From Dehalococcoidia bacterium (lineage in GTDB: Bacteria; Chloroflexota; Dehalococcoidia; Dehalococcoidales; Fen-1064), in contig DUEV01000004.1 in NCBI GenBank assembly GCA_011170375.1, positions 62,001 through 126,000 of the forward strand: a DNA stretch of 64,000 bases. The letters run 5' to 3'. Of this stretch, positions 528 through 9,447 are shown piece after piece. The notes under the pieces are model-generated. The model had not been told where the DNA came from. It searched no databases and saw only the letters and a list, made by a program, of their open reading frames with translations. Position numbers and translations under genes: made by a program. Each line of letters starts with the position of its first letter. Within the stretch, counting starts at the first letter, position 1.

Positions 528-680
528 ACCGGTGAGAACAAGGCCACCAACCGGGCAGGTGGTGAGCCGCCGGGGTGTTTAACAACAGATGGTCGCTTGG
601 ATCGGATACGACCGAGACGGCAAAAATAAGAAACGTTTTGATGCCCTCTCTGGTAGTACCTGAGAGGGTATTTTTATTCC
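528..680 (+). ncRNA. structured leader RNA with antiterminator/terminator choice upstream of pan genes
   Basis: Three elements are visible. A 5' stem-loop (529-573) pairs CCGG 529-532 with 570-573 and GGC-CACC 542-548 with GGTG 558-561 and GCC 566-568. A hairpin pairs GGTCG 591-595 with CGACC 609-613. Two mutually exclusive stems follow: GAGACGGCA 614-622 with TGCCCTCTC 642-650, or CCCTCTC 644-650 with GAGAGGG 662-668 followed by a T-rich run. This is the layout of a transcription attenuator. Bacterial 'pan' motif RNAs are known upstream of pantothenate genes, including in Chloroflexota. I cannot confirm a match to that consensus from memory. No T-box sequence is present. Confidence 0.55.
644..676 (+). 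terminator. intrinsic terminator inside the pan leader
   Basis: CCCTCTC 644-650 pairs with GAGAGGG 662-668, with a nested GGT/ACC stem in the loop, followed by TATTTTTATT. It lies 26 bases before the first coding sequence, so it must be conditional for the operon to be expressed. Confidence 0.7.
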
Positions 681-702: not shown

Positions 703-1593
703 ATGCCAAAGCTGGGATTTATCGGAGCTGGAACAGTAGGAACGGCACTGGCAATCAGGCTGAGTGAACGTGGCCAATCAGTGGTCGCAGTCTCCAGTCG
801 AAGCCAGACATCAGCCGAGAAGCTGGCGCAGGCTATTGACGGCTGTCGTGCCCTTGACAGTAGCCAGGCAGTGGCTGATGTCGCCGAGCTGGTCTTCATC
901 ACCACCCCAGATGACGCTATCGCCACCGTAGTATCCACCGTAAACTGGCACTCCGGCCAGAGCGTCGTTCACTGCAGCGGCGCTGATTCGGTTGATACCC
1001 TTGAGCCAGCCAGAAAGCAGGGTGCCAGCGTTGGCGCCATTCACCCTCTTCAGACCTTTGCCAGCGTTGAGCAGGCAATCAACAATATCTCCGGCTCGAC
1101 CTTTGCGCTTGAAGCCCAGGAACCTCTGCTGAGTACCCTAAAAGAAATAGCCACCACCCTTGATGGAACCTGGATAGAACTGACAGCCGATGACAAGGTG
1201 CTCTACCACGCCGCCGCCGTTATCGCCTGTAACTACCTCGTTACTCTGGTCAAACTGGCCACCGACCTGTGGCAGACCTTCGACGTCCCACCAGAGCGAG
1301 CTACTCAAGCATTACTCCCGTTGCTGCGTGGGACGATTGCCAATATCGAAAGAGTGGGCATACCAAAATGCCTCACCGGCCCGATTGCCCGAGGTGACAC
1401 CGGCACCATCAGGAAACACATTGATGCCATGAAGAAAGCAGCCCCAGACCTGCTCCCCACCTATCTTGACCTGGGCCGACAGACTATTCCGATTGCTCTG
1501 GCCAAGGGGAGAATTGACCAGCACCAGGCGGAGGAACTGCAAAAGTTACTTACGAATTCTACAGAAAAGGTTAAAATAACGGAACGAACATGA
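703..1593 (+). CDS. Rossmann/DUF2520 oxidoreductase, possible ketopantoate reductase
   Basis: 296 residues from ATG 703; a GTG at 691 in the same frame is rejected because GAGGTG at 693-698 is the ribosome site. The N-terminus shows a dinucleotide-binding fold ([14 protein letters not shown]). The C-terminal half is the helical DUF2520 domain. It is the first gene of an operon with panD, panB and panC, and the operon lacks panE, the usual ketopantoate reductase. An NAD(P)H-dependent reduction of ketopantoate to pantoate is therefore the natural inference; alternative reductases such as PanG are known from other bacteria. The sequence alone does not prove the substrate. Confidence 0.8.
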
Positions 1594-1609
1594 CACGAGG
1601 GGAGATACG

Positions 1610-1981
1610 ATGAGAATTATGCTGAAGAGTAAAATCCACCGGGCCCATGTCACTGACTGTAACATCGACTACGAGGGTAGCATAACCATCGACCGAAAGC
1701 TCATGGAGGAAGCCGACATCCTGCCCTACGAACAGGTGCAGGTGCTCGACATCAACAACGGCTCCCGCTTCACCACTTATGCTATCGAGGGGGGCCCGGG
1801 TGAGATTTGCATCAACGGTGCCGCTGCCAGGTTGGTCTCCGTCGGAGACTTAGTCATTATTCTCTCCTACTGCCATCTAAGAGACGACGAAGCCCGCCGT
1901 TTCAAACCGACACTGGTCCACGTCGACGCTAATAACATCAGCACCTCGGTACGACGAACCATCGAAACCGCTCCAGTCTAA
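1610..1981 (+). CDS. panD: aspartate 1-decarboxylase
   Basis: 123 residues, the usual size for the family. PanD converts L-aspartate to beta-alanine, one of the two halves of pantothenate. The self-processing Gly-Ser site is visible in YEGSITID (about residues 22-29), where cleavage generates the pyruvoyl cofactor. The conserved NGAAARLV segment is also present. It starts 16 bases after the DUF2520 gene with GGGGAG as ribosome site and is followed by panB after 11 bases, so it belongs to the same transcript. Confidence 0.95.
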
Positions 1982-1992
1982 GGAGGGGGACA

Positions 1993-2841
1993 ATGCGTAC
2001 CACTATCAACCAGATAAAAGAGATGAAACAAAACGGTGAGAAAATCGTCATGCTCACCTCCTACGATTACTCAACCGCCAAGCTCGTCGATGAGATAGGC
2101 ATACCACTGATTCTCGTCGGTGACAGCCTCGGGATGGTCGTCCTGGGATATGAGTCGACCATTCCAGTAACGATGGAAGTAATGCTGCACCACACCAAGG
2201 CAGTGGTCAGAGGCACCGAGCACGCGCTAATTATCGGTGATATGCCCTTTATGACCTACCACGTCAGCGTTGAGGACGCCATACGCAACGCAGGTCGTTT
2301 TATCCAGGAGGGCGGCGCTCAGGCCGTCAAACTGGAAGGCGGCATTACCGTTGCTGAAAAAGTAAGGAAAATCGTTGATTGTGGTATCCCCGTAATGGGG
2401 CACATCGGTCTGACTCCCCAGTCGGCCAACCAATTGGGTGGCCTCAAGGTACAGGCTAAGTCCATTGATGCGGCCAAGCATCTGGTAGAGGATGCTAAAG
2501 CACTTGAGCAGGCCGGAACCTTCGCCATCGTACTGGAAGCTGTCCCCGCTCGACTTGCTGCCATCGTAACCGAGACGGTGGGTGTTCCCACTATCGGCAT
2601 CGGCGCTGGTCCAGACTGCGACGGCCAGGTCCAGATCGTAAACGATATCCTGGGACTTTACACCGAGTTCGTGCCCAAACACGCCAAACAATACGCCAAC
2701 TTGACCGACACCATGCGAAGCGCCCTCACGAAATACTTCAACGAAGTAAAGGACGGTATCTTCCCCACCAGTGAGCACAGCTTCCTCATCAGCAAAGACG
2801 TACTGGCTCAGCTAAAGGCAGAGTACGCAGCCAAGAAGTAA
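1993..2841 (+). CDS. panB: 3-methyl-2-oxobutanoate hydroxymethyltransferase
   Basis: 282 residues, full length for PanB. The enzyme transfers a hydroxymethyl group from methylene-tetrahydrofolate to 2-oxoisovalerate, giving ketopantoate. Recognisable blocks are MLTSYDYSTAKLVDE near the N-terminus, LVGDSLGMVVLGY (metal-binding Asp), VKLEGG, MGHIGLTPQS and IGIGAGPDCDGQVQI. AGGAGGGG precedes ATG 1993. It lies between panD and panC, with only 6 bases to panC. Confidence 0.96.
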   Translation: MRTTINQIKEMKQNGEKIVMLTSYDYSTAKLVDEIGIPLILVGDSLGMVVLGYESTIPVTMEVMLHHTKAVVRGTEHALIIGDMPFMTYHVSVEDAIRNAGRFIQEGGAQAVKLEGGITVAEKVRKIVDCGIPVMGHIGLTPQSANQLGGLKVQAKSIDAAKHLVEDAKALEQAGTFAIVLEAVPARLAAIVTETVGVPTIGIGAGPDCDGQVQIVNDILGLYTEFVPKHAKQYANLTDTMRSALTKYFNEVKDGIFPTSEHSFLISKDVLAQLKAEYAAKK

Positions 2842-2847
2842 ATAGCA

Positions 2848-3681
2848 ATGCAGATTGTTGAAACAATCACCGAAATGAAACGGCTGCGGCTTCAATTGCC
2901 GGAGCCATTGGGTTTTGTTCCGACGATGGGATACCTCCATGAAGGCCACATTTCGCTGGTAAGGCGCGCCAGAGAAGAGAACGCCTCGGTAGCAGCCAGT
3001 ATATTCGTCAACCCCACCCAGTTCGGGCCGACCGAGGACTTCGAGGACTACCCCCGTGATACCAAGCGTGACCTCGCTATGCTTGAGGAGGCCGGTACGG
3101 ATGTCGTCTTCACACCGTCCGTCGCCGAGATGTACCCGGAACGCTTCAGTAGCTGGGTGGAAGTAGGCAAACTCACGGAGCGACTTGAGGGTGCTGCCCG
3201 ACCAATCCACTTTCGCGGAGTGACCACCATCTGCACCAAGCTGTTCAACATCGTCGAGCCGACACGGGCCTATTTCGGGCAGAAAGATGCCCAGCAGGCA
3301 CTGGTACTCAAGAAGATGGTGGCCGACCTCAACATGAACCTTGAAATTGTTGTCTGCCCCATCATCCGCGAGCCTGACGGCCTTTCCATGAGCAGTCGCC
3401 ATGTCTACCTGAATCAAGAGCAGCGTTGGGCGGCCGTGTCTCTCTACCAAGCAATAAAACTCGCCGAGGAACTGTGGGCACAGGGTGAAAGGGACGCCGA
3501 GCGCCTGCGGCAGGTAGTAATCGAACATATCCAGCAGCAACCACTGGCCGAAATAGAATACGTCAGCATTGCCGACACGGAGATCTTAGAAGAACTTGAA
3601 ACAATTACTTCCTCTGCCCTGCTGTCACTGGTGGTAAGGTTCGGCAAGACGAGGCTGCTCGATAACACGATACTTAAATGA
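2848..3681 (+). CDS. panC: pantoate--beta-alanine ligase
   Basis: 277 residues. PanC joins pantoate and beta-alanine using ATP through a pantoyl-adenylate. Nucleotidyltransferase motifs are visible: VPTMGYLHEGHISLV (HxGH-type site), FVNPTQFGPTEDF, YFGQKDAQQ and the KMSKS-like LSMSSRHVYL. It is the last gene of the pan operon and starts 6 bases after panB without a clear ribosome site of its own, which suggests translational coupling. The operon supplies every pantothenate step after 2-oxoisovalerate if the DUF2520 protein is the reductase. Confidence 0.96.
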   Translation: MQIVETITEMKRLRLQLPEPLGFVPTMGYLHEGHISLVRRAREENASVAASIFVNPTQFGPTEDFEDYPRDTKRDLAMLEEAGTDVVFTPSVAEMYPERFSSWVEVGKLTERLEGAARPIHFRGVTTICTKLFNIVEPTRAYFGQKDAQQALVLKKMVADLNMNLEIVVCPIIREPDGLSMSSRHVYLNQEQRWAAVSLYQAIKLAEELWAQGERDAERLRQVVIEHIQQQPLAEIEYVSIADTEILEELETITSSALLSLVVRFGKTRLLDNTILK

Positions 3682-9370: not shown

Positions 9371-9447
9371 GTCCCTGTAGCTCAGCAGGATAGAGCGGCT
9401 GCCTTCTAAGCAGCGGGTCGCAGGTTCGAATCCTGCCAGGGACGCCA
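9371..9447 (+). tRNA. tRNA-Arg(TCT)
   Basis: Complete cloverleaf with acceptor stem GTCCCTG/CAGGGAC, anticodon stem GCTGC/GCAGC around loop CTTCTAA (anticodon TCT at 9405-9407), GGTTCGAATCC T-arm and encoded CCA. Its last 20 bases are the integration site of the element that follows: the same 20 bases recur at 14444-14463 and 17 of them, plus two bases beyond, recur at 19840-19858. Confidence 0.95.
9428..9447 (+). repeat. att core copy 1 (inside tRNA-Arg)
   Basis: GAATCCTGCCAGGGACGCCA, the 3' end of the tRNA gene. The reading phase CCT-GCC-AGG-GAC-GCC here is the same as at copy 2, which matters for the recombinase gene that crosses it. Confidence 0.85.

Follow-up and report, generated by a model that had tools for sequence, protein, structure and literature searches.

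A pan-motif leader before a pantothenate operon of Dehalococcoidia, and a putative antiterminator shared across the pan RNA class

In OFF riboswitches such as those for TPP and lysine, the 3′ strand of the aptamer is shared with an antiterminator and the conserved domain is followed by an intrinsic terminator, while in the pyr leaders bound by PyrR small RNA hairpins decide between antiterminator and terminator ahead of a biosynthetic operon. The pan motif (Rfam RF01749) was presented by Weinberg et al. in 2010 as an RNA class found upstream of panB, panC and panD in Chloroflexi, Firmicutes and delta-Proteobacteria; the main text of that paper mentions no terminator, antiterminator, kinase or transporter genes in connection with the class, and its supplementary files are said to annotate predicted terminators (PMC2864571). 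In the literature that we searched there is no published function for these RNAs: the Bacillus and Paenibacillus papers that name the pan RNA list it in transcriptomes only, and it goes unmentioned in a 2024 study of B. subtilis CoA synthesis. A 2022 review notes that no riboswitch for CoA is known and calls this puzzling (PMC9971707).

Here we analyse a stretch of 64,000 nucleotides from a Dehalococcoidia bacterium (the window), for which a preliminary description had proposed an attenuator with mutually exclusive stems in front of the pantothenate genes. The features that matter for the argument, in window positions, are the following.

493-521, + strand: promoter, TTGACA (493-498), 17 nt, TAGTAT (516-521) with TG ahead of TAGTAT; from a consensus scan and family members
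542-568, + strand: pan motif hairpin 1 with bulged A550 and A565; Rfam RF01749 alignment, 9 of 10 pairs changed on both sides among 65 leaders
593-620, + strand: pan motif hairpin 2 with bulged A601 and A617; Rfam alignment, nearly invariant, 97% of cells paired in 65 leaders, -15.6 kcal/mol
611-622, + strand: predicted antiterminator strand 1, the 3′ strand of hairpin 2 plus tail, pairing with 642-654; conserved complementarity
642-654, + strand: predicted antiterminator strand 2, the terminator 5′ arm plus loop edge, pairing with 611-622
641-677, + strand: intrinsic terminator, stem 641-671 (outer pairs to 640-672), then a U-rich tract; -20.2 kcal/mol, in nearly all relatives
703-1593, + strand: Rossmann/DUF2520 protein (Pfam PF10727, PF10728), a putative PanG-like ketopantoate reductase; start taken from relatives
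1610-1981, + strand: panD, aspartate 1-decarboxylase (TIGR00223)
1993-2841, + strand: panB, ketopantoate hydroxymethyltransferase (TIGR00222)
2848-3681, + strand: panC, pantoate-beta-alanine ligase (TIGR00018)

By homology, the segment 542-624 appears to be a member of the pan class. The preliminary description had wavered between a pan RNA and a new class and had proposed a run of the Rfam model, which returns a full-length match (1-92) of 35.5 bits (E 2e-4 for the stretch); this lies 0.7 bits below the curated cut-off of 36.2, so a standard scan misses the leader. Scored with a hold-out covariance model, built from 30 leaders from outside the window's family, the segment reaches 69.3 bits (E 3e-15), and no other place in the window exceeds 6.2 bits. 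With both models agreeing on pan, the new class was dropped. The two-part stem-loop noted upstream turns out to be the hairpins 542-568 and 593-620, the halves of the motif, each with its two bulged A's, and the core GCYUGGAUC ... GACCGRGAC, at 595-603 and 610-618, is invariant or nearly so in 65 leaders. The locus thus shares with the described class the two bulged-A hairpins, the conserved core and the pantothenate genes downstream, and differs in falling just short of the Rfam cut-off. It is the only match to the Rfam pan model in its genome, its orthologue in a genome of the same genus reaches 39.2 bits, and a search of the leader against plasmids gave no match. Elsewhere in the window, a tRNA gene (9371-9444, + strand) is the sole family over its Rfam cut-off.

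The leader stands in the 5′ UTR of an operon (703-3681) with the order DUF2520 (PanG-like)-panD-panB-panC, the first gene of which most probably starts, judging from its relatives, at ATG 703 and not at GTG 691; DUF2520 proteins have been tied to the ketopantoate reductase PanG (PMC4572677). Other family members keep the same promoter in the same place, so transcription is expected to start near 528. The attenuator had been proposed on the understanding that transcription begins before 680 and that relatives keep the stems; the promoter indeed lies upstream of the motif, and the stems are conserved.

The Rfam pan model is positive in 57 of 101 relatives and in 20 of 400 genomes of the window's phylum, and every one of the 13 DUF2520 loci found in the family carries the motif (the hold-out model scores them at 31 to 72 bits), including ones that Rfam had missed. 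Scanning contigs with the core pattern yielded mostly chance matches, with a pan match in 5 of the 21 genomes tried. In line with a phylum Chloroflexota, named Chloroflexi and Dehalococcoidia records hold loci with pan matches, and the DUF2520 protein of a named Chloroflexi record is 58% identical to that of the window. When the leaders are aligned for covariation, as had been suggested, the stems are kept with compensatory changes: of the pan cells in 65 leaders, 97.1% are paired, and changes on both sides are seen in 11 of the 21 pairs, a count reached by 0 of 500 shuffles. This covariation comes mostly from hairpin 1, hairpin 2 being almost invariant, and the outcome is unchanged when the alignment includes the terminator. 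In five loci of the same family hairpin 1 is degenerate, with hairpin 2 and the terminator intact, which raises the question of whether one hairpin is enough. At one of them (L268, genome G005) the DUF2520 gene contains two in-frame TGA codons, reflecting a pseudogene, an assembly error or recoding.

Downstream of the motif, the antiterminator that had been described (614-622 with 642-650, eight of nine pairs) is present exactly as claimed, and the strong terminator with its T-run is borne out by the stem at 641-671 and the U-rich tract after it. We find that the antiterminator extends to 611-622 with 642-654; this longer duplex, at -14.7 kcal/mol, has 11 pairs, a mismatch at C618 x C646 and a bulged T651. 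Since it takes one strand from hairpin 2 (the 3′ one) and the other from the terminator (the 5′ arm), it excludes both hairpins, and the conserved stems with their shared strands support the proposed attenuator. Only 3 of 200 shuffles fold better than the whole leader (z -2.9), and among the 127 terminator-like hairpins on both strands of the window that of the leader ranks second in pairing with the pan 3′ strand.

The same arrangement recurs across the class. Nearly every leader has a terminator-like hairpin after the pan motif: 68 of 71 in the window's phylum, 44 of 45 in Firmicutes and 20 of 20 in Desulfuromonadales, some of the hairpins picked for these counts not being the proximal one. 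The searches were centred on named records (Pectinatus and Desulfuromonadaceae), from which the group labels Firmicutes and Desulfuromonadales derive. In all three groups the terminator 5′ arm and the conserved pan 3′ end are complementary, in registers that differ: the window's group has GAGACGGCA with UGCC(C/U)UCUC, both Firmicutes and Desulfuromonadales have CGGAAGG with CCUUUCG, and Bacillus-type leaders have CAGAGGGA with UCCUUCUG. Compensatory sets include CAGAGGGA/UCCUUCUG and CGGAAGGU/GCCUUUCG.

The first controls were shuffled 5′ arms and reverse-complemented 3′ arms; swapped leaders were then preferred, since in them the terminator sequences remain real ones. Over all groups the pan 3′ end pairs with its own terminator at -12.75 kcal/mol, versus -11.50 kcal/mol with swapped ones (z -7.5, matched in 0 of 5000 permutations, a statistic that ignores kinship among leaders). 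The excess holds in Firmicutes alone (z -4.6, 0 of 5000) and is modest in the window's phylum (48 of 5000); Desulfuromonadales alone show no excess (1340 of 5000), their sequences being too alike.

Within the window's phylum the antiterminator is paired in 80.3% of alignment cells, against 40 to 61% for versions slid along the alignment, and the pairs changed on both sides, counted in the window's own group, do not rise above shuffles (201 of 500 reach the count). We read the antiterminator as conserved and not covarying inside this phylum, the covariation being contributed by Firmicutes and by the comparison across phyla. The core of the terminator 5′ arm is nearly fixed there save for the arm ends and the third base of CC[C/U]UCUC, and this varying base sits opposite C618, the unpaired base of the antiterminator. 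Asymmetry between the arms is suggestive only, as G-U pairs can also produce it. The Rfam pan consensus, moreover, ends in a conserved tail, GAaGG, that is largely unpaired in Rfam's model, and pairing with the terminator would explain its conservation. Taken together, these comparisons, made with about 180 relatives, indicate that the conserved 3′ end of the pan RNA may double as an antiterminator across the class.

It could be argued that the terminator is constitutive, setting the level of expression or ending an upstream transcript, and that its complementarity to the pan 3′ end is incidental; the partners do hardly vary in the window's group, and conservation alone is no proof of pairing. 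We consider this improbable given the outcome of the swapped-leader test across phyla and in Firmicutes, the second rank of the pairing among the window's terminators, and a promoter only about 120 bases upstream with no same-strand gene in between.

Hairpin 2 and the antiterminator are close in stability, as a switch needs, with means over 67 leaders of -13.5 and -12.8 kcal/mol. We propose that the nascent leader would fold into its two bulged-A hairpins, and that 611-622, the 3′ strand of hairpin 2, would have an alternative partner in the terminator 5′ arm (642-654). An effector that stabilises hairpin 2 would let the terminator form, and polymerase would stop before panG-panD-panB-panC (OFF); with no effector, the antiterminator would form and the operon would be read. 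As far as sequence can establish them, the pan structure, the terminator and their conserved mutual exclusion appear secure, and the arrangement is of the riboswitch type in that expression platform and conserved domain exclude each other. That the switch goes OFF upon stabilisation of hairpin 2 we infer from the anatomy of the leader and the nature of the genes it controls.

The opposite polarity deserves weighing, because in the window leader (hairpin 2 at -15.6, the antiterminator at -13.9 and the terminator at about -20 kcal/mol) the terminated fold is favoured at equilibrium. Termination might then be the default, an effector or a starvation signal freeing the 3′ strand of hairpin 2 for the antiterminator. 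Such an ON switch seems unlikely to us: what is strictly conserved is hairpin 2 in its folded form, the expected target of stabilisation by an effector, and a regulon of biosynthesis and uptake suits feedback repression. Since the terminated fold wins thermodynamically, an OFF switch would have to work kinetically or through a balance that is invisible to these energies.

Control through translation was considered as well. An ATG at 589 opens a 24-codon frame, the translation of which might steer the terminator, but in relatives of the same family the ATG and frame are lost or shifted, and the frame has no run of relevant codons; we rejected this leader-peptide attenuator as scarcely credible. 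In seven Bacillus-type leaders an additional hairpin covers the Shine-Dalgarno region; the bases immediately preceding that hairpin are able to pair with the pan tail at -12 to -17 kcal/mol, which could add a second, translational layer. A pan leader ahead of an ECF component and then coaX (L327/L344) is without terminator, and its ribosome site lies under a hairpin whose loop contains AUCCCG, the complement of the pan CGGGAU. For the ECF leader L281, a translational version was tried and abandoned, its fold having given no support.

The genes behind pan leaders extend beyond synthesis. Most of the leaders precede DUF2520, panB, panC or panD, and others precede a PanS-like transporter (301.6 bits over its full length, under the equivalog cut-off of 400), PanF (653 bits, cut-off 328) or an ECF substrate component. 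Pantothenate kinases appear in several arrangements: the type II enzyme (CoaW) after an OPT transporter, coaX behind an ECF gene or at the end of panC-panD-birA-coaX (six genomes of the Pectinatus class), and coaX at the head of coaX-panG-panB-panC, which a distant member of the window's phylum carries with a weak pan match of 34.8 bits. If pantothenate itself gave the feedback, repression of the very kinase that uses it up would be surprising; the simplest choice is therefore an effector lying downstream of the kinase, most likely CoA or a close derivative, whether it is sensed directly or by way of a bound protein. Our preferred reading, to which we assign a probability of roughly 70%, is that the leader is a cis-acting transcription attenuator of the pan class, OFF when an effector holds hairpin 2, the effector most likely lying downstream of pantothenate kinase.

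Several further leaders stand before less expected genes. At five loci a peptidase S58 (DmpA-like) gene lies between the pan leader and panG-panD-panB-panC, and this enzyme might release beta-alanine, a precursor of pantothenate. One leader (L209) precedes a secreted acid phosphatase of the e(P4) 5′-nucleotidase family, possibly serving salvage of CoA or phosphopantetheine, and a Chloroflexi bacterium record has a pan match before a gene that, judged by eye, is ECF transporter ATPase-like. The second pan leader of one genome (L046, genome G428, 1501-1577), with terminator, precedes a molybdopterin oxidoreductase, outside known CoA function.

What holds hairpin 2 may also be a protein. In that account the pan hairpins form the binding site of a dimeric regulatory protein that stabilises them and so causes termination, and the RNA itself binds no metabolite. 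In its favour, two similar bulged-A hairpins stand in tandem, the structure is small and simple for a riboswitch, and the discoverers of the class suggested a dimeric protein (PMC2864571). Against it, our analysis found no candidate, and the relatives with degenerate hairpin 1 and intact hairpin 2 and terminator speak weakly against an obligatory pair of sites. We judge the protein account a serious contender with a little under an even chance; because it differs from our preferred reading on the effector only and shares the attenuation, confidence in the two overlaps. To our knowledge, no pan-binding protein has been described. That pan RNAs are instead the missing CoA-responsive riboswitch class, sensing CoA or a post-kinase intermediate directly and controlling pantothenate synthesis, uptake and phosphorylation in several phyla by OFF attenuation, is a more speculative extension that we hold to be unlikely.

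The window leader itself is an ordinary pan RNA, and it is the class-wide switch and the wider regulon that are of interest. Neither is described in the main text of PMC2864571; their novelty is not certain, since the supplements of that paper and most subscription literature lie outside our comparison. The complementarity between the terminator 5′ arm and the conserved pan 3′ end gives the class a definite, testable switch, and a regulon that takes in pantothenate kinases and importers besides panB, panC and panD directs attention beyond pantothenate, to coenzyme A. Combined with the missing CoA riboswitch, these two observations make what the pan RNA senses directly testable.

Among known systems, pan RNAs resemble the TPP and lysine OFF riboswitches in sharing a 3′ strand with the putative antiterminator and in placing the terminator after the conserved domain, and differ from them in that the domain consists of two simple hairpins, with no complex fold and no known ligand. 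With PyrR-type attenuators they have in common small hairpins that would decide between antiterminator and terminator ahead of a biosynthetic operon, whereas the tandem arrangement of bulged-A hairpins is specific to pan.
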